A stretch of DNA of 33,627 nucleotides from Fidelibacterota bacterium (lineage in GTDB: Bacteria > Fidelibacterota > Marinisomatia > Marinisomatales > UBA1611), in contig PBFM01000020.1 of NCBI GenBank assembly GCA_002718655.1, positions 1-33,627 on the forward strand. The letters are read 5' to 3'. Below, in pieces: positions 13,069 to 23,702 of this stretch. The position numbers and the translations under genes were made by a program. The notes beneath the pieces are model-generated. The model made no database searches and had not been told where the DNA came from. It saw nothing but the letters and a program-made list of their open reading frames with translations. Each line of letters starts with the position of its first letter. The first letter of the stretch is position 1.

Positions 13069-14232
13069 TTAAAGACTGATCTCCAATTTAGTACCATTTT
13101 TGATAGATGATTCAATAACTTTAATATTACCACCATGTATATCCTCAATAATCCTATTAGATAATGACAGCCCTAGCCCCCAACCAGCTTTTTTTGTGCT
13201 AAAACCTGGGCGAAAAATATTTTTCCAATCCTTTTTTGGAATACCTTTGCCATTATCTTTTATGATGATTTTAATTTTTTCATTTACTTTTCTTAAAGTT
13301 ATGGAAATTCTACCATCATCACGTTCTATTGCATCAATTCCATTACGTATAATATTTTCAATAGACCATGATAACAGAGATCCGTTTGCGTTTATTAAAA
13401 TTCCAGGGTCAATATCATTAATCAGTTCTACTTTTTTACCAAGGGATGGAAGACGTTTTTTTAAGTAATTAATCGTCTTTTCTAATCTATCTGAAAAATC
13501 AAAATATTCAAAATTAGCCTCTGATCCCATTTCACTAAATCTTCTCCCAATTTGTTCCAGTCTTTGTAAATCAATTTCAATTTCTGAAATAATTTCAATA
13601 GTATCATCAGGATGGGTCTTTAAACGATCAATCCATCCCATTATTGCTGATACTGGAGTTCCTAATTGATGGGCAGTTTCTCTTGCCATCCCAACCCAAA
13701 TATGTTTTTTTTCGTTATTCCTGATAAAACTAAATCCCGAGAAGCCTAAAAATATGAATAATCCAATGGCAACAATTTCGATATAACTCCATAATTGTAT
13801 TTTTTCAACCATTGCTGAATCACCATAATGTAAAAATCCAAAAGTAATTTGGCTCACTTTATCATCTGTATATGTTAGAGGAATAGGTTCATTAAATTTA
13901 TCCATCTTTTTCGCAAAACGGGAAACTTCATTCTTAGTTAAAATATTATCTGGAAGATTCTTCCACATTTGGGGTATTTTATTATTATCAGTTTGAATTA
14001 ATGGAAATTTTACTTTCTGGATAATATTTTCAAAAATAAAATCGAGATTTGCGTTATCATTATCTTTTACAACATCTGCAATCATACTTGCATAGAGTCT
14101 AACAATTTGACGATTATCTTTTCGAAGTTCATTTACTAATAATTGTGTATATGTCAATAATCCAATAACAAGAATAATTCCTAAAATGAATAGTCCAGCT
14201 TTTATATTTCCGGCATTACGGTATAGTTTCAT
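13069..14232 (-). CDS. Membrane sensor histidine kinase
   Basis: Two TM segments; H-box ARETAHQLGTPVSAIMGWIDRL; N-box ENIIRNGIDAIE; DNGKGIP; GWGLGLSLSNRIIEDIHGG. Confidence 0.88.
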   Translation of the reverse strand: MKLYRNAGNIKAGLFILGIILVIGLLTYTQLLVNELRKDNRQIVRLYASMIADVVKDNDNANLDFIFENIIQKVKFPLIQTDNNKIPQMWKNLPDNILTKNEVSRFAKKMDKFNEPIPLTYTDDKVSQITFGFLHYGDSAMVEKIQLWSYIEIVAIGLFIFLGFSGFSFIRNNEKKHIWVGMARETAHQLGTPVSAIMGWIDRLKTHPDDTIEIISEIEIDLQRLEQIGRRFSEMGSEANFEYFDFSDRLEKTINYLKKRLPSLGKKVELINDIDPGILINANGSLLSWSIENIIRNGIDAIERDDGRISITLRKVNEKIKIIIKDNGKGIPKKDWKNIFRPGFSTKKAGWGLGLSLSNRIIEDIHGGNIKVIESSIKNGTKLEISL

Positions 14233-16591
14233 ACTTCTTACTATTTTTTTCTTTATAAAACAAAATACCTAATACAAAAATCACTATAAAAAAGATTGTT
14301 CTTGATAAAAGCCTTGCATTTTTCCAACTTGTATGGTCATACTCAAAAACTATTTCAGATTTTCCATCTGGGATATACACGGACCTTAAGATATGATTTG
14401 TTTGATATATGGATGTTTTTTCTCCATTTACAAATGCTCTCCAACCTGGCTCATAGTAAATCTCTGATAATACTATAAGACCTCCTTGATCTGACTCCGC
14501 ATTCAATATGATTTTATTTTCATTTCTAGAAATCATATTAACGGAACCTTTTGATAATTTTGAAATGGGTTCTCCCTCATAATTTAAAACGACAGCAGAC
14601 TTGGCAGGGTTAGAGCCAACAAGTAAAGTTTGCATTAATGATTCACGTTTCGATTTTACAGATTTTATATCATTAACAAACCATGCTTTAGGTAAAACTT
14701 TCTTATTTTCATAAACTCCAATAAGATTGGGAACTGGTATAAAATCTTTATTATTAATTTTTTTCTTTGTTAGAACATATTTTACATTAAGCATATTTAA
14801 AATGTGTGGACGAGAAAACCCGCCTGCATCCATTAAATCTTGATAATTACGTAATTTAATTGGACGATATCCGCCAATACTTTCCAAATTCCAATAACTA
14901 TATTTATTGGAACCTAACCTATCAGCAGGAAAAATTCTAAAATAATCCTCATCTTGAAGTAGGTGTTTTACTGTTTCGTCCATTTTAAACATATTAATCA
15001 TATCTTTAGCAGGTTTAACGCTAATAAACTCTGAATTGATAACATAGAGATCAGTTACTGTCAATACAATTAATAAACATCCAAAACTTTCAATACTAAT
15101 TTTCTTTTCAAATAAACTCCATACCAACCCAAGAAAACCTATGCTCACAAAAAATGCAAGTAATGCACCTTTTTGAAATAAATCTATCCTAATACTTTTT
15201 ATTTGATTTATTATTGAAGGATTAAATCTTCCATCCTTAGCATTATTAAACTCAAATACTATATCACCAAACAAAAAAGATAAAATAGACAATAGTCCTA
15301 TAAAACCGGAAACAAATAGAACTTTTTTTAAGACAATCTTGTCCTCTACAGTTTTGATAATAATGTCATATCCTTTTGCTGCCAAAACTGGGATTGTAAG
15401 AGCAAGAAGAACATAAATCATTGACGGAATACGAAACTTGGAGAAAAAAGGCAATAATTCAAAAAAAGGTTTATATAATATTGGGAAAGATGATCCAAAC
15501 CCAGTTAATAAAGTCAAGAAGGTTGTTGATAATAAAAACCAGTGCATTCGATCTGGTTTTTTTATAATCGAACCTAAAATGGTAAGTATGATTGCTATTA
15601 ATCCTAAATAATGAGTGGACTGTGTAAATGGCATATATCCCCAATATGCTACAGATTTTAAATCCCTGTCAGGAAAGTTTTGCAATCCATAATGGTAAGG
15701 AAAAATAAAAGAAATCATTTCTCTTGGGTCGAAAGACCATTGTGTTGCATAATCCCAATCTGTTCCAACATTGTTTTTTTTTGATTCATTTAAAACAGAA
15801 CTCTCCCCTCTGTTAGAGTGTTTTTGAAAAGAGTATATATCCCAATATGGATCAGAGACCATTATAATGGATATCAATAAGCTACCAGAGATTACACAGA
15901 ACTTCAAAATTGATGATTTAAAAGAAAATAAATTATTACTCAATGAGTTAAATGTTTCCCACACAAAATAAAAACCAATTACCATCCATGTATAGTATAC
16001 AATTTGAGGATGATTAGCCCATAATTGTAGTGCAGTGACTAAGGAAAAGAACAATACTACTATTAATGATGGTTTTTTCATTAAATGAAAAACCGAAAAA
16101 ATTGCCCAAGGCACATAGGCCATTGCATGTATTTTATTTAAATGCCCTGCATTTACTAAACCAAAGCTATACGGTGTGAGTCCAGCAATAAGCCCACCTA
16201 GGATACACCCAATGGTACTAATTTTTAGGTACCTTAATAACATGAACATACCTATTGAAGTTATGGACATAAAAAACCAAACCTTCATCCCAGGATTAAA
16301 AAAAAGCGTATTTCTAATAACTTTTGTTGGATCACCAGTCATATAAATATAACCACCATAAGATGGCATACCAGAAAAAAGATTAGGAAACCATTGTGGC
16401 ATATCACCCTGGTCTTCCAAGTAAGAATCACGCCACTGATTAATAGGATGCCTTTCTAACTCATCATTAGTTGTTACTACCTCACCGAATAAAATCATTC
16501 TATAAAGAAACACTGCAGGAATGATTAACATAATGAAAGGTAAATATTTTTTAATATAATCTTTTTTATCTTTTCGCATATCAGTTATCAC
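14216..16591 (-). CDS. YfhO family (GT-C-like) integral membrane protein
   Basis: About a dozen TM segments, NAGHLNKIHAMAYVPWA, C-terminal GLIVLSEIYYEPGWRAFVNGE domain as in YfhO family. Confidence 0.85.
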   Translation of the reverse strand: MITDMRKDKKDYIKKYLPFIMLIIPAVFLYRMILFGEVVTTNDELERHPINQWRDSYLEDQGDMPQWFPNLFSGMPSYGGYIYMTGDPTKVIRNTLFFNPGMKVWFFMSITSIGMFMLLRYLKISTIGCILGGLIAGLTPYSFGLVNAGHLNKIHAMAYVPWAIFSVFHLMKKPSLIVVLFFSLVTALQLWANHPQIVYYTWMVIGFYFVWETFNSLSNNLFSFKSSILKFCVISGSLLISIIMVSDPYWDIYSFQKHSNRGESSVLNESKKNNVGTDWDYATQWSFDPREMISFIFPYHYGLQNFPDRDLKSVAYWGYMPFTQSTHYLGLIAIILTILGSIIKKPDRMHWFLLSTTFLTLLTGFGSSFPILYKPFFELLPFFSKFRIPSMIYVLLALTIPVLAAKGYDIIIKTVEDKIVLKKVLFVSGFIGLLSILSFLFGDIVFEFNNAKDGRFNPSIINQIKSIRIDLFQKGALLAFFVSIGFLGLVWSLFEKKISIESFGCLLIVLTVTDLYVINSEFISVKPAKDMINMFKMDETVKHLLQDEDYFRIFPADRLGSNKYSYWNLESIGGYRPIKLRNYQDLMDAGGFSRPHILNMLNVKYVLTKKKINNKDFIPVPNLIGVYENKKVLPKAWFVNDIKSVKSKRESLMQTLLVGSNPAKSAVVLNYEGEPISKLSKGSVNMISRNENKIILNAESDQGGLIVLSEIYYEPGWRAFVNGEKTSIYQTNHILRSVYIPDGKSEIVFEYDHTSWKNARLLSRTIFFIVIFVLGILFYKEKNSKKYETIP

Positions 16592-16625: not shown

Positions 16626-18797
16626 TTAGGGATGAAATAAAGTATTTGGACTTTTTTTATACCACTTTTTCAAAATTTTCACAATACCTGGTCTCATTAA
16701 ATATTCCGGAATTTCTTCATCATTCATAATTTTTTCTCTTATTCTTGAGCCACTGATTTCTTCTATATTTTTTTGCATATCTATAAATTTTTTCTCAGAT
16801 AAACCGACACCTTCCTCAAACAGGACAGAATCAAAACTTATAATTCTTATTTCCATATCCAATGAATCAATGAATCGCATTGAAGCGTCAGAAGGGTAGT
16901 AATTACCAACTCCTGTATGATCACGACCGACAATAAAATAGTTGCAACCAAAGTTTTGTCGACAAATTGCTGTAAAGACTGCTTCTCTTGGCCCGGAGTA
17001 TCTCGAATGTGTATTGAATGATCCAATCATAGCACCGTAGGGCTTATATGCACTTTCACCAATAAGTAAATTATAGCATTGAATTATTGGTTCACCAAAA
17101 AAATCTCCTGATTTTTTTAGACCAGTGACAGGTGAAATAAAAATACCATCAGCATTTGTATCTTTTAGTGCCTTTTTTTGTATGTATTCGTGCCCAAGGT
17201 GAGGTACATTTCTTGTATGGAAGCCTATAATATTATGCCATCCCTTATGATCGAAAATATATCTACTCTGAGTAGGTGTTAGTTCATATACGTTTTCTGC
17301 TATTTTCAAATAGCTATTTAATAAAAACGGCCGGCCTGAGACAATATAATCACCATTACTATATAATTTGGATACCCCAGGGTGATTAACATCTTCCGTA
17401 CCAAACCATAGTTTAGCAATTTTTTTTATGTTTTTTAATTTTTCAATTTTTTGGATTTTAATAAATGCAAATGGGAATTGTTCACCATTTTTTTTCAAAA
17501 AAATCATATCTTTATTAGGAATAGCCTTAAGGATAGTACTATCTATTTGAAAAATTATAGGTAAAGTCCATAAATATTCATTACCGATTTTATTCTCATT
17601 TAATACGTAGTTAATTTCCTCATATGACATAAATGAATTGATTGGTGAAAAAGTGCCATTTGCAATTTGATGTATATCTAAATAAATCTCATCATCCACA
17701 AATATAGCATCAGAATTATTATCAAAACTTTGATTAGAGAATTGCTGCACAAGCACCCCCCCGTGCGGATTTATCATCCTATCTGACGGGAGATGAAATA
17801 ATTTATCAAGTGCTTTATTTTTTTCATAATTTTCAGTCTCATTCATAATTCTAGATAGAATCCTTACACATTCAACGGGATAATTACCAATCGCAGTTTC
17901 AGCAGCAAGAACAAGTCCCTTTGCGCCACTATTCAATGTTGATTTTATATCATTTACTTCAGCTCGTGTTGGTTTGGAATTCAAAATCATATTTTCCATT
18001 AAATTAGTTGCTACATAAACAGGGGTGTTTGTTATTTTGGCGTTTTCTATGATATGCTGTTGGGCCATAGGTATTTTTTCAAGAGGAACATCCCTTGAAA
18101 GGTCGCCTCTATCTATTAAAATAGCGTTACTTTCTTTACAAATTCCATCTAAGTTAAGAAGTCCTTTTTTGCTCTCTATTTTACTGATTATTTCTATAGC
18201 GTAAGAAAATTTATTACGCAGAGAAATAACATCACTTTTCTCTGAACAAAATGAAAGAAAAAAATGTTTGATACCAATGGAATGTGAAATCTTAAAAATT
18301 TTTTTATCTTTTGTGGTAAAACTGTCAAGATTAATCAAACGGTCTACATTAATTCCTTTATTATTTCCAATTTTACCTGGATGCAGAACGCGACCAATTA
18401 TTTTGTGGTAGGATTTTTCAATTATTTGAACAACGACACCATCAAAATCAATTGTTATTAAATCGCCATTTTTGAATATGTTTTGTATATCATTCCCAGT
18501 TATACCTATTTTATTATTATTTGATAAATTTCTTTTATTAACAAATTCTACTATTTCATACTCTTTTACCAGTCTCTGGTCTATCAATAATGAAGTTCTT
18601 AGTTGTGCACCTTCCGTATCAGGACAAATTGGCTTATTAGTCCATCTCTTCATATTTTCAACAATGGTGAGAAATTCGTCAATTTCAGTGTGAGATAAAT
18701 TTATTCTAAATAAATCAACACCAGCGTCTTCCATCTTCTTAATCGTGTTTTCATTCAAAGATGAAGGACCTACAGTACAAATAATTTTTTTGTGCAT
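16626..18797 (-). CDS. Pyruvate kinase (N-terminal catalytic region) - ATP sulfurylase (C-terminal) fusion protein
   Basis: aa 1-~335 PK-like: KIICTVGPSS, LFRINLSHT, PDTEGAQLRTS, KIESKKGLLN, ILIDRGDLSRDVPLEKIPMAQQ, ATNLMENMILNSKPTRAEVND. aa ~343-723 ATPS-like: INPHGGVLV, GFHTRNVPHLGHEYIQKKAL, SRYSGPREAVFTAICRQNFGCNYFIVGRDHTG, ISGSRIREKI. One uninterrupted frame. Confidence 0.9.
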   Translation of the reverse strand: MHKKIICTVGPSSLNENTIKKMEDAGVDLFRINLSHTEIDEFLTIVENMKRWTNKPICPDTEGAQLRTSLLIDQRLVKEYEIVEFVNKRNLSNNNKIGITGNDIQNIFKNGDLITIDFDGVVVQIIEKSYHKIIGRVLHPGKIGNNKGINVDRLINLDSFTTKDKKIFKISHSIGIKHFFLSFCSEKSDVISLRNKFSYAIEIISKIESKKGLLNLDGICKESNAILIDRGDLSRDVPLEKIPMAQQHIIENAKITNTPVYVATNLMENMILNSKPTRAEVNDIKSTLNSGAKGLVLAAETAIGNYPVECVRILSRIMNETENYEKNKALDKLFHLPSDRMINPHGGVLVQQFSNQSFDNNSDAIFVDDEIYLDIHQIANGTFSPINSFMSYEEINYVLNENKIGNEYLWTLPIIFQIDSTILKAIPNKDMIFLKKNGEQFPFAFIKIQKIEKLKNIKKIAKLWFGTEDVNHPGVSKLYSNGDYIVSGRPFLLNSYLKIAENVYELTPTQSRYIFDHKGWHNIIGFHTRNVPHLGHEYIQKKALKDTNADGIFISPVTGLKKSGDFFGEPIIQCYNLLIGESAYKPYGAMIGSFNTHSRYSGPREAVFTAICRQNFGCNYFIVGRDHTGVGNYYPSDASMRFIDSLDMEIRIISFDSVLFEEGVGLSEKKFIDMQKNIEEISGSRIREKIMNDEEIPEYLMRPGIVKILKKWYKKSPNTLFHP

Positions 18798-18821: not shown

Positions 18822-20096
18822 TCAATTAATCAAAAAATCAGAATCATTTAAAATCTTATTTATCTCATTATATTCAGATTGATTTTCTTTTTTAAATTGG
18901 CTATAAAGATTGCTTTGTTTTAAATCTTTTTCATAAACATAATTTTTGTAGTATTTCATTAATATTTCAAAATTTTTATTAAATCGAGGACAAATAACAT
19001 CTATGATATATTTTAACATTTCATTTAATTCATCATTTGAAAAATTTTTTTTATCATCTTCTTGCACACCTATAGCAATTTTTGAACCTAAAGTTTCTAC
19101 AACAGAAGGTAAAAGTTTATCATCTAATGTTATTAATTTTTGATATTGACCCCAATCTTCACATACCCTTATTACCTCTGGTATTTCAAATTTAAACCTA
19201 CAGCATAATAAAAATGGATTATAATCATTCATCATTATTCTTTTTAATGAAAAATTTTGATAAATATTTCTTCTTTTTTCGGTATTAATTCCTTTTTTTT
19301 TCCACTCTCTTAATGTTTGCATATCAATCCTTATACTAAAGCCATTATAAAGCATAAACCTGTTTGCCAAACCATTTAAACGAGTTTTTATCATTGAAGG
19401 GTTTGATACTTCAAACCCGGCTACTTTACCCATTTTTTCAAAAACCTTATCTGGTGAGTTAAATAGATGTGAATAATCAAATATTTTTACATTATTGAAA
19501 ACATTTGAATATAATTTGTACAAAGAATATATTTTTGCTCTTTCAACAATGAATTTTCTTGAAAAGTTTTGTAAATCATCTTCAATAATTTTTTTGGGTA
19601 AATATTCAAAACAATTATTATCATTTAAAGCTAAAGTTTTCAGAGAATTATAATGATTCATTTTCCAGTGATATCTCCATCCATTCATTGTATTTGGAAA
19701 AGACCAATCACCCACAATCCTTGCTAACTGTCTATTCAATTCAGATTTATAAACGGCATTTAAATCACGAACTGGAAAAAAAATGACTTTTATGCCTAAA
19801 ATATTTTGACATGCTTTGAGAAAATCAACGTTCCTCTTTGAATGCAATGGATATATTAAGTTTCTTCTCAAAGAATGGAAAACAATACCTGATATTGCAT
19901 TTGGATTTTGAATTAATTCCAACTTTAATTTTTTTTTCATTTTATAAAGTGGAGATTTATATCTTCTTTTTAAGAAAGATTTTACAACATAATCAAATTC
20001 ATATCTCGAAGGCATAATGATATTTGATTGGATTTTTAAGTTGATATAAAAAAATTGGCTTGCAACTCTTCCAGTATTCAAAACCATAAAAGACAT
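18822..20096 (-). CDS. Divergent sulfotransferase-like protein
   Basis: N-terminal NTGRVASQFF (5'-PSB-like) and KVIFFPVRDLNAVYKSELNR with the R-x7-S spacing of the PAPS 3'-phosphate binding motif. Confidence 0.55.
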   Translation of the reverse strand: MSFMVLNTGRVASQFFYINLKIQSNIIMPSRYEFDYVVKSFLKRRYKSPLYKMKKKLKLELIQNPNAISGIVFHSLRRNLIYPLHSKRNVDFLKACQNILGIKVIFFPVRDLNAVYKSELNRQLARIVGDWSFPNTMNGWRYHWKMNHYNSLKTLALNDNNCFEYLPKKIIEDDLQNFSRKFIVERAKIYSLYKLYSNVFNNVKIFDYSHLFNSPDKVFEKMGKVAGFEVSNPSMIKTRLNGLANRFMLYNGFSIRIDMQTLREWKKKGINTEKRRNIYQNFSLKRIMMNDYNPFLLCCRFKFEIPEVIRVCEDWGQYQKLITLDDKLLPSVVETLGSKIAIGVQEDDKKNFSNDELNEMLKYIIDVICPRFNKNFEILMKYYKNYVYEKDLKQSNLYSQFKKENQSEYNEINKILNDSDFLIN

Positions 20097-21010
20097 TAAA
20101 GATTTCTCCTAATCTTATTCTCAACAGCTTCAATTAAAGATTTCCAATATTGGAGATTGCCACTTTTCTTTGTTTTCCAATAAAATACACCGGAAGAATA
20201 CATATGTGTCATTATTGGTCTATTTCTATATGTAAATAGTTCAAAATCTTTCGCAATTGCAGCATACTCAAGCTTTCCATCTTTAATAAAATCGGCCTGG
20301 TAGGGAGATTCAAAAATAACTGTACGGAATTTATTGGCAACGCATTCATTTATTATTTCCATTCCTGTATCTGGGGATGTGATACCAGTACTTTTTTCTA
20401 GAATGAAACATAATTTTCTTAGTAAATGGAATTTATTTAATATATGTTTATTTGCAACCCCGCCTAAACGAATTATTTTCCTCACGATACTATTATATAT
20501 TCTTTCAGAAAATGATGGAAATGGGGAAAAAAGTTTTTTCATTTTTTTAATTAACTCTGTTTGAAAGAACATAAAAACAACACTTGGATATTTGTGAACC
20601 TTACCAATTTTCCATTGTGGATATGGAGCGCCTAAAATTGTCTTGGGATCTTTTTCCAATTGACTTGTGCAAAATGTATCCCAATTACACTCAAAAATAT
20701 GAATATCTGGGTCGACAATTAATGTATACTTAGTTTTTATACTTTTTAGACCTAAATCTAAACCCATTGCATGTGACTTAGACCTTTGTCTAGTTTTTTC
20801 ATTATTACAAATAATGTTTACGTTAGGTGAGTTATTAAAATCAACATATAGTTTCCTATCTTCTCCACAAGAATTATCCACAATTAAAAATTGTAATTTT
20901 TCTTGGTTATTGGCCTTTTCAATAAGATTAGAGAATAATCTTTTTAGATGGTTTGAAGAGAAATAGCTGACTGCAAGAATTGTAATTTTTTTTTTGTCAA
21001 GATTCATCAT
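20096..21010 (-). CDS. Glycosyltransferase family 2-like protein
   Basis: ITILAVSYFSSNHLKRLFSNL...FLIVDNSCGEDRK...YTLIVDPDIHIFE (GT-A nucleotide-binding and DxD-type region). Confidence 0.75.
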   Translation of the reverse strand: MMNLDKKKITILAVSYFSSNHLKRLFSNLIEKANNQEKLQFLIVDNSCGEDRKLYVDFNNSPNVNIICNNEKTRQRSKSHAMGLDLGLKSIKTKYTLIVDPDIHIFECNWDTFCTSQLEKDPKTILGAPYPQWKIGKVHKYPSVVFMFFQTELIKKMKKLFSPFPSFSERIYNSIVRKIIRLGGVANKHILNKFHLLRKLCFILEKSTGITSPDTGMEIINECVANKFRTVIFESPYQADFIKDGKLEYAAIAKDFELFTYRNRPIMTHMYSSGVFYWKTKKSGNLQYWKSLIEAVENKIRRNL

Positions 21011-21735
21011 AATAAATTATCGATATCCTTCTCTAAGGCTATAATTTTTTCTGGTAAAATAATTTCCTCACCTGAGCTGTTTTTACTTATAGTTTTATCA
21101 ACAAACTTATTAACAATTTTTGGCTCGAAAGAACACGATAAAAAACTAAACATATTTTTAAAATTCTCTTCTGGTATTTCAAGAATGTTTTCAAATGACA
21201 TATAAAAAGTAGCAATATTATTTTTACTGCAAAAATCAAGTGCCCTTTTGGTATATGAAAACCAAAGTTCTAGTCCTTGATTCAATGGGAGTTGGTTTCT
21301 TGCAGTCAAAGATCTTGCTACGGAGATTGCATCTCTAGTAATAAAAATTATTTTAATTTCTTTTTCAAGATCCATTTCAGAAAAAATTTCCATCCAATTT
21401 TCAATAGTAAGACAAGTACGTGGATCTTTCCATCCCCAGTTTTGATAATTATCCTGATTATATGTAATCAGTTTTTTCATCTTATTCTTATGGCCATCTT
21501 TTAACTCAGATTGGGGTATTTGGGGATTGTAGCTTTTAACATCATAACCATTAAAACTTAAAATCCTATCATTAATTAACCTGAAGTCATAATTCTCATA
21601 AAATCCCTTTGGGTTTTGAGGCAAAGGCCTAGGCCAAAAGTTTTCATAATTCCCCATAATTATGTTATTTAAATGTAATACCCCAGAGACGGTTGAAGTA
21701 CCACTACGATGCATTCCTAATACAATTACTATCAT
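21007..21735 (-). CDS. Sulfotransferase family protein
   Basis: IVIVLGMHRSGTSTVSGVLHL P-loop-like 5'-PSB and KIIFITRDAISVARSLTARN with R-x7-S 3'-PB motif. Confidence 0.82.
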   Translation of the reverse strand: MIVIVLGMHRSGTSTVSGVLHLNNIIMGNYENFWPRPLPQNPKGFYENYDFRLINDRILSFNGYDVKSYNPQIPQSELKDGHKNKMKKLITYNQDNYQNWGWKDPRTCLTIENWMEIFSEMDLEKEIKIIFITRDAISVARSLTARNQLPLNQGLELWFSYTKRALDFCSKNNIATFYMSFENILEIPEENFKNMFSFLSCSFEPKIVNKFVDKTISKNSSGEEIILPEKIIALEKDIDNLL

Positions 21736-22763
21736 TTGTAGTAATTTTTTTTAAATCCCACAAAAGAGTCCTGATTAAAAATAAATCTCCTTATATATGC
21801 TTGTAGGAATCCAATACCATATCCGAATATTTGCGCTGGTATTACAAAAAGTAAAATAGGGAAAATAAAAAAGTCATTTTTTTTTATAGCACCAAAAAAG
21901 GATAACATTAACAATGGTGTGATTAAGATAAGAAAGATTTCATAAATCATAAAATTATTTTTAAAGAGGAATATTACTAATGCTATACAAATAAAAATAG
22001 ATAATGATGGTAGAAAGTGAATGGGCTCAAGCATTGAAGAATCAATTTTCCCCAAGTTTATACGAGCCACCCCCCAATTAAATACTTGCTTGAAAAATTG
22101 CTTAATTGTTGTTCTTCTTCTATGATATACTTTTGCATTCAGCAAAAATTTTACACGAGCTCCTGTTTTAATTATTCGGTTACTAAACTCGATATCTTGA
22201 CCGTGCCTAAGATTTATAAAACCACCTATCTCATTATACAATGATTTCTTTATTCCCATATTATGTGTCCTAGGAAAAAATTTAGAAATCATTTTTTCGC
22301 TGTGACCTCTCATACCACCAGTTGTTATGAAAGACGTCATTGCGAAATCAATTGCTTTCTGCAGTCTAGTGAAGTCTTCTTTTGCAGAATCTGGACCTCC
22401 AAATGCATCAAATGAATCTTTTTTATATTCTTCATAAATTATTCTTATCCAGTCATAATGTGCTTCACAATCTGAATCAATAAATAAGATAAGGTCTCCT
22501 TCAGCATTTTTTAATCCATGATTTCTCGCAGCCCCTGGACCCTGATTATCTTGAGTTATAAATTTAATTTTAAATTTGGAATCATTTTGCCATTTTCTCA
22601 CTGTTTCTGCTGTAGCATCTGTAGAACCATCATCTGATATAATAAATTCAAAAATATCATCATCAATGGATTGCTCTTTTAAAGATTTGTAAAGATGGTG
22701 TAATTCTTCAATACGATTATATGTGGGAGTGACAATACTAATTATTGATGTATGCCTAGACAT
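21732..22763 (-). CDS. Glycosyltransferase family 2
   Basis: ISIVTPTYNRIEELHHLYKSL, EFIISDDGSTDATAE, GPGAARNHGLKNAEGDLILFIDSDCEA, C-terminal TM segments. Confidence 0.93.
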   Translation of the reverse strand: MSRHTSIISIVTPTYNRIEELHHLYKSLKEQSIDDDIFEFIISDDGSTDATAETVRKWQNDSKFKIKFITQDNQGPGAARNHGLKNAEGDLILFIDSDCEAHYDWIRIIYEEYKKDSFDAFGGPDSAKEDFTRLQKAIDFAMTSFITTGGMRGHSEKMISKFFPRTHNMGIKKSLYNEIGGFINLRHGQDIEFSNRIIKTGARVKFLLNAKVYHRRRTTIKQFFKQVFNWGVARINLGKIDSSMLEPIHFLPSLSIFICIALVIFLFKNNFMIYEIFLILITPLLMLSFFGAIKKNDFFIFPILLFVIPAQIFGYGIGFLQAYIRRFIFNQDSFVGFKKNYYK

Positions 22764-22769
22764 CTTATT

Positions 22770-23702
22770 TTATTGGTCAACAGAAATAAATTGACGTATA
22801 CGGTTTTCTTGCCTTTGCTGCGAAACAGCTATCATTTCACCAATCAGTCCAATGGAAAAAAACCAAAGGCCTAAAATAAATGACATAGCACCAAAAGTGA
22901 TTAGTGCAAAATGTTTCTGAAAATTATTCCCTAAAATGAATTTTTTATATAATACTACTATTTCAGCACTCGTCCCTATTAAAATAAAAAGCAAACCAAA
23001 AAATCCAAACAAGTGTAGCGGACGTTGTGTATATCTGTTTAAAAATAAAATTGTAATTAAATCAAAAAATCCATGGAAAAGTCTTGAACCACCATATTTT
23101 GTAACACCAAACTCCCGTGCTCTATGATTTACAATGATTTCAGTGACCTTGAATCTTTTTTGTCCAGCTAATGCAGGGATATATCTATGTCTACCACCAT
23201 ATATATCAATTGACTTTACAACAGATCTTTTATAACCTTTTAAACCACAATTAAAATCATGAATCTTTACGCCAGTAAAAATACGAGTAACAAAATTAAA
23301 AATCTTTGAAGGCAAACGTTTATTTAGTGGATCTAACCTATTTTTTTTCCACCCTGATACCAAGTCCCAACCTTCATTTAGCTTATTAACAAGATTTATT
23401 ATTTCAGCAGGGTCATCTTGCAAATCAGCATCCATTGTAATTATATGCTTGCCCCCAGCAATTTTAAATCCTTCGCTCAATGCAGCTGATTTACCAAAGT
23501 TTCTATAAAATTGGATAAGTTTGAATTTTTTTCTTGTGGAACATAAATCAATTAACCATTCCGTTGAGCCGTCAGTAGAGCCATCATCAATAAAAATAAC
23601 TTCCCATTCATCATAGGATTCAAGGTTAACGATTAACTCATCTAACAAGATAGGTAATGATTCAAGTTCATTTAACACAGGAATAACAATAGATATTTGC
23701 AT
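22770..23702 (-). CDS. Glycosyltransferase family 2 (DPM1/ArnC-like, two C-terminal TM segments)
   Basis: ISIVIPVLNELESLPILLDEL, VIFIDDGSTDGSTE, GKHIITMDADLQDDPAEI, two C-terminal TM. Confidence 0.93.
   Translation of the reverse strand: MQISIVIPVLNELESLPILLDELIVNLESYDEWEVIFIDDGSTDGSTEWLIDLCSTRKKFKLIQFYRNFGKSAALSEGFKIAGGKHIITMDADLQDDPAEIINLVNKLNEGWDLVSGWKKNRLDPLNKRLPSKIFNFVTRIFTGVKIHDFNCGLKGYKRSVVKSIDIYGGRHRYIPALAGQKRFKVTEIIVNHRAREFGVTKYGGSRLFHGFFDLITILFLNRYTQRPLHLFGFFGLLFILIGTSAEIVVLYKKFILGNNFQKHFALITFGAMSFILGLWFFSIGLIGEMIAVSQQRQENRIRQFISVDQ

Follow-up and report, generated by a model that had tools for sequence, protein, structure and literature searches.

A pyruvate kinase–ATP sulfurylase fusion, probably dedicated to sulfate activation for glycan sulfation, in Fidelibacterota and other phyla

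The window, a stretch of 33,627 nucleotides from a Fidelibacterota bacterium, encodes a single protein in which a pyruvate kinase (PK) is joined to an ATP sulfurylase (ATPS). This fusion is probably a dedicated bifunctional sulfate-activating enzyme that serves PAPS formation and glycan sulfation, with the PK half recycling, from PEP, the ADP produced by APS kinase. Since fusions of this type usually lie near genes for sulfated surface sugars, the protein probably powers sulfation with ATP recycling of its own.

An earlier note, made from the letters of the window, had described one frame of 723 amino acids (aa) at positions 16626 to 18797. The open reading frame (ORF) check bore out position and length and supplied the strand, minus, which the note had not given; the start codon is ATG. 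The gene is composed as follows.

16626..18797, minus strand: PK-ATP sulfurylase fusion, 723 aa (ORF, Pfam, AlphaFold2 model, Foldseek)
17865..18791, minus strand: pyruvate kinase A/B domains, PF00224, aa 3-311, catalytic residues present, without the C-terminal domain (Pfam, alignment)
17775..17864, minus strand: linker, aa 312-341, where the PK C-terminal domain would be (Pfam domain borders)
17331..17774, minus strand: PUA_2 of ATP sulfurylase, PF14306, aa 342-489 (Pfam)
16665..17288, minus strand: ATP sulfurylase catalytic domain, PF01747, aa 504-711, with HTRNVPHLGH and GRDH (Pfam, motifs)

The order of PK followed by ATPS in one chain, as the earlier note had read it, was confirmed by Pfam. 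The PK barrel with its B domain matches aa 3-311 over the full profile (4-328; E 4.5e-60), which identifies the N-terminal region as PK, and is followed by PUA_2 (E 4e-27) and the ATP-sulfurylase domain (E 1.1e-57). No PK C-terminal domain was found in the ORF by Pfam at E ≤ 0.001 and PUA_2 begins at aa 342, in agreement with the view that ATPS has taken its place. The blocks that had been quoted for the two halves (KIE, RGDL, ATNLM, PTRAE, NPHGG, HTRNVPHLGH, GPREA, GRDH and ISGSRIR) all occur in the ORF, and Pfam found no APS kinase domain within it. Scores against the NCBIfam models TIGR01064 (pyruvate kinase equivalog; 253.8 bits) and TIGR00339 (sopT; 251 bits) lie below the respective cut-offs of 306.4 and 322.95. 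The AlphaFold2 model of the protein, built with 44 homologues, has a mean pLDDT of 89.7 and a pTM of 0.83, and places helices at 307-327 and 330-334 in the linker region. Among PDB structures, Foldseek matches it best to ATP sulfurylase 8a8d and to a large number of pyruvate kinases.

The fusion thus resembles ordinary pyruvate kinase (EC 2.7.1.40, PF00224; E. coli PykF, rabbit PKM1) in its A and B domains, classical catalytic residues and fold, but differs in lacking the C-terminal domain and in falling below the TIGR01064 cut-off. It shares both domains and the active-site motifs with Sat-type ATP sulfurylase (PF14306 and PF01747), of which the best match with a solved structure is the 8a8d enzyme of Methanothermococcus (about 34% identical; TM-score, by target length, 0.89), but bears an N-terminal PK. 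An assembly chimera was ruled out, because a collinear copy, 64% identical, is present in another genus within the same family and at least 80 near full-length homologues are known from the scan described below.

The catalytic residues of the PK half are conserved throughout. Counterparts of the E. coli catalytic residues R32, N34, D66, R73, K220, E222, D246 and T278 are all present in the window PK. Across the 83 alignable fusions, a set that includes some near-duplicate loci (e.g., L040/L047 and L092/L093), residues R31, N33, S35, D60, R67, K147, K206, E208, D232, T264 and E300 are invariant (83/83). The patterns with which fusions were scanned for, ATNL[LM]E[SN]M and TRAEV[NH]DI, bias the sample towards conservation in their own two blocks, not at K206, E208, D232, R31 or E300. 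A dead PK region is ruled out at the residue level by this invariance. The ATPS motifs HxRNxxHxxH and G[RC][DN]H are intact in 80 of the 83, and those of the window protein, HTRNVPHLGH and GRDH, match the (Q/H)xRNxxHxxH and GRDH of the Sat type. In L115 (9986-12160), L117 (10001-12142) and L124 (6671-8830) the ATPS motifs are degraded and the PK residues intact; in L115 an APS kinase gene is still adjacent.

Compared with 40 canonical PKs, the fused PKs carry a family-wide signature of Q65 for the canonical Glu/Lys117, D229 for Ala, S234 for Gly and N265 for Gln. Position 65 aligns with rabbit Glu/Lys117, which has been described as the K+-dependence switch of PKs, the known signatures at rabbit 113/114/117 being T/K/E in K+-dependent and L/Q/K in K+-independent enzymes (PMC8835810, PMC4284704). 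In contrast, the fusion has Thr or Ser, Glu and Gln at these positions, and Gln65 fits neither class. Owing to these substitutions in the active site, the acceptor or the regulation could differ from that of an ordinary PK.

The gene for APS kinase lies within 100 bp downstream of the fusion in 37 of 85 loci (L050, in which it is on the opposite strand, is counted here) and anywhere in the locus in 47 of 85. The junction is often a 4-bp stop/start overlap. In Flavobacterium sp. Leaf82 and [Flexibacter] sp. ATCC 35103 (L122/L126), alone among the 85 loci, APS kinase is part of the same chain, as a 925-aa triple fusion of PK, PUA_2, ATPS and APS kinase. APS kinase is encoded in 38 of the 40 fusion-bearing genomes tested. 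The window locus belongs to the roughly half of the 85 that have no APS kinase gene nearby. The earlier note had proposed a look through the parent genome (2.1 Mb, 60 contigs, 80% complete) for APS kinase and for another full-length pyk, and both were found: two ATPS-APS kinase fusions (L042 527-2170 and L043 8502-10133) and a separate 481-aa PK on contig C58. Each of the two ATPS-APS kinase fusions sits within a nucleotide-sugar/polysaccharide cluster. A normal PK is retained in most genomes sampled; in several genomes of Omnitrophota, Elusimicrobiota and Patescibacteria no PF00224 gene other than the fusion was found, absences that are limited by the incompleteness of metagenome-assembled genomes (MAGs).

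The earlier note had recognised the fusion and missed the sulfotransferase/glycosyltransferase cluster that surrounds it. The neighbouring genes, one downstream and five upstream, are listed below.

14216..16591, minus strand: YfhO-like membrane protein, directly downstream of the fusion, syntenic in genomes G005 and G006 (Pfam, synteny)
18822..20096, minus strand: 424-aa conserved protein without Pfam match (Pfam, phylum survey)
20096..21010, minus strand: 304-aa protein, glycosyltransferase-like by eye, no Pfam match, syntenic (Pfam, synteny)
21007..21735, minus strand: sulfotransferase, PF13469/PF00685, with the PAPS-loop-like GMHRSGTS (Pfam)
21732..22763, minus strand: family 2 glycosyltransferase (Pfam)
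22770..23702, minus strand: family 2 glycosyltransferase, ArnC-like (Pfam, NCBIfam)

This gene order is kept in G006. On contig C22 of G005 the whole block is present with the fusion gene missing between the YfhO and 424-aa genes, and contig C24 of the same genome carries a PK-ATPS of a distant clade. That a sulfation cluster without a local fusion is accompanied by a different PK-ATPS elsewhere in the genome suggests a functional need; with three genomes only, the pattern is suggestive and not proof. Among the phylum's 245 genomes, the 424-aa protein is confined to 3, exactly those with the fusion. It has no Pfam match, and phmmer gave no meaningful structural relative among PDB sequences. 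Its N-terminal TGRVASQ resembles, by eye only, the PAPS loop of sulfotransferases, and the protein is possibly a divergent member of these.

A similar setting recurs across loci. In a tally of 107 immediate co-directional neighbours, from which APS kinase and near-duplicate loci had been removed, the commonest Pfam family is the sulfotransferase PF13469 (19/107). The Pfam tallies were used in place of a regular expression for the sulfotransferase PAPS loop, which matched 9 of 85 loci and was too insensitive. The sulfotransferase clusters c10 and c29 are nearly always within two genes of the fusion. Other genes of the loci encode epimerases, DegT aminotransferases, NeuB, cytidylyltransferases, glycosyltransferases and flippases. 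In four Patescibacteria genomes of 0.6-0.8 Mb, the single detected PF13469 sulfotransferase adjoins the genes for the fusion and APS kinase; in G250 the match scores below the curated cut-off. The CysH-type reductase PF01507 gave no match in three of these four Patescibacteria genomes and none in 8 of 18 carrier genomes; it is present in some carriers. Two further kinds of neighbour recur: cluster c5 (15 loci, e.g., L112 12570-14228) is a protein of the Na+/H+ exchanger family, and c25 (6 loci, e.g., L065 13140-13871) a TauE/SafE-like transporter. Both might transport sulfate or ions for the module.

The fusion is rare and patchy: full-length copies were found in 3 of the phylum's 245 genomes and, within the Omnitrophota group, in 9 of 285. 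When GTDB species genomes were scanned, at least 80 loci nevertheless emerged, all near full length, from about 20 phyla, a breadth that the earlier note, which had asked for the phylogenetic spread, had missed. Among the matches listed are Pseudomonadota, Planctomycetota, Omnitrophota, Elusimicrobiota, Myxococcota, Bdellovibrionota, Verrucomicrobiota, Actinomycetota, Nitrospinota, Chloroflexota, Bacteroidota, Ignavibacteriota, Acidobacteriota, Gemmatimonadota, several Patescibacteria and one archaeon, a Pacearchaeote (DPANN). Most carriers are MAGs; isolates among them include Methyloversatilis, Mesorhizobium, Ensifer, Flavobacterium and Salsipaludibacter. In the PK-half tree, a branch with SH-aLRT 100 divides the fused PKs from 21 canonical PKs, and in the ATPS-half tree the fused domains are likewise separated, with support 100, from 9 stand-alone and 7 SAT-APSK enzymes, both trees being quick ones with limited outgroups. 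Pairwise distances in one half correlate with those in the other at r = 0.87, as would be seen in halves that co-evolve. The simplest reading would be a single fusion event followed by transfer as a unit, of which the trees give no proof. Among plasmid records the full-length fusion is found only on Ensifer and Sinorhizobium megaplasmids (two records), and phage records gave generic PK matches only; a plasmid or phage origin of the window gene was rejected on these grounds.

Sulfate activation is among the least favourable metabolic steps, and cells are thought to pull it through APS kinase and pyrophosphatase. The ATPS reaction itself is strongly unfavourable; APS kinase pulls it but yields ADP. 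We infer the enzyme activities, their coupling and a sulfated product from the architecture, family, conservation and context set out above. The C-terminal half, as a Sat-type ATP sulfurylase, would convert ATP and sulfate to APS and PPi. A separate, adjacent or fused APS kinase would then form PAPS and ADP from APS and ATP, and the N-terminal PK would turn ADP and PEP into ATP, removing the ADP that inhibits APS kinase. The net reaction of the module would be ATP + PEP + sulfate to PAPS + pyruvate + PPi, with PAPS passing to the sulfotransferases encoded alongside for the sulfation of surface glycans. For the organism of the window, the two ATPS-APS kinase proteins encoded at other sites of the genome would provide APS kinase in trans.

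A parallel to this scheme exists in vitro, where human PAPSS1 required recycling by PK and PEP, without which PAPS was practically missing and ADP accumulated (PMC9885120). That system combines the same ATPS, APS kinase and PK, but is a man-made mixture of separate enzymes to which pyrophosphatase was added (PMC9885120). PAPS synthases and bifunctional ATPS-APS kinases likewise join ATP sulfurylase to a second enzyme of the PAPS pathway, whereas the partner in the fusion is PK and not APS kinase; the Flavobacterium protein has both (PK-ATPS-APSK). What a cell would gain from recycling of its own kind for sulfation is not obvious, because cells have ATP anyway. Local removal of ADP, coupling of sulfation to PEP supply, and channelling are conceivable gains.

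The earlier note had offered two roles for the PK half. The regeneration of ATP from the ADP of APS kinase is favoured, because APS kinase lies directly downstream in those 37 of 85 loci and is fused twice, and the PK catalytic residues are invariant. Its more speculative proposal, that PK replaces APS kinase in a PEP-dependent formation of PAPS, would account for the lack of an adjacent APS kinase at the window locus and for a 10.8-kb marine viral contig that has a sulfotransferase, a PK of the family and a small nucleotidyltransferase but no APS kinase. It is nonetheless highly improbable, because 38 of 40 carrier genomes encode APS kinase, which is adjacent or fused in many members, and the window's genome has two such genes. 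There is slightly more room, still little, for an acceptor other than ADP, such as another nucleotide of the sulfation cycle. The invariant Q65, D229, S234 and N265 separate the family from canonical PKs of the same genomes and the fused PKs form a separate group in the tree, but the catalytic and cation-site residues are unchanged and nothing positive points to another acceptor.

A regulatory role is the strongest of the alternatives, if an unlikely one. Fungal ATPS has a regulatory kinase-like domain, and the PK domain could in parallel be mainly a PEP sensor, or a structural or oligomerisation module, that switches sulfate activation on at high PEP, with turnover incidental. The substitutions around the active site and the replacement of the usual PK regulatory domain by ATPS would suit this. 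Against it, all classical catalytic residues are invariant, including Lys206, which a pure sensor would not need. That an enzyme of ordinary sulfate assimilation or a glycolytic PK was fused by chance, with no link to sulfation, has very little probability: the fusion is the only PF00224 gene in several genomes and some carriers have PF01507 reductases, but the sulfotransferase/glycan surroundings recur in many phyla, PF01507 went undetected in those 8 of 18 carriers, and most sampled genomes keep a normal PK.

It is a reasonable possibility, somewhat short of an even chance, that the fusions constitute an undescribed, widely transferred and self-powered PAPS-forming family, with APS kinase separate or fused, whose activation of sulfate for glycan sulfation is driven directly by PEP. 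Such a family would take in Patescibacteria in which no CysH-type reductase was detected and at least one marine virus, there in split form, and its PK may have evolved a specialised acceptor or a channelling function. The earlier note did not recognise the architecture as a standard enzyme, and no description of a PK-ATPS fusion was found in the open-access literature; in surveys of fusions, pyruvate kinase gave no keyword match. As the search covered open literature only, novelty is not proven. A conserved natural PK fusion across many phyla suggests a third solution to the unfavourable activation of sulfate, private ATP recycling from PEP. The fusion could serve as a genomic marker for sulfated glycans where little is known of them, as in Patescibacteria, Omnitrophota, Marinimicrobia, Planctomycetota and rhizobia, and the triple fusion as a ready-made catalyst for enzymatic sulfation.

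Relatives of the components also occur in viruses. The marine viral contig IMGVR_UViG_3300038530_000728 (L127 3842-5865) carries three overlapping genes. One encodes a PF13469 sulfotransferase, another a PK of the fusion family that stands alone at 311 aa (DTEGAQIRT, IDRGDLSKE), and the third a nucleotidyltransferase-like protein of 123 aa (HDGH and ISATKIR); the trio is possibly a split viral version of the PK-ATPS module. In L157-L176, relatives of the 123-aa protein adjoin or are fused with an APS-kinase-like P-loop kinase on many viral contigs (PHROG 10255), perhaps as a minimal viral sulfate-activation pair. In L159, a sulfotransferase-like gene lies nearby.
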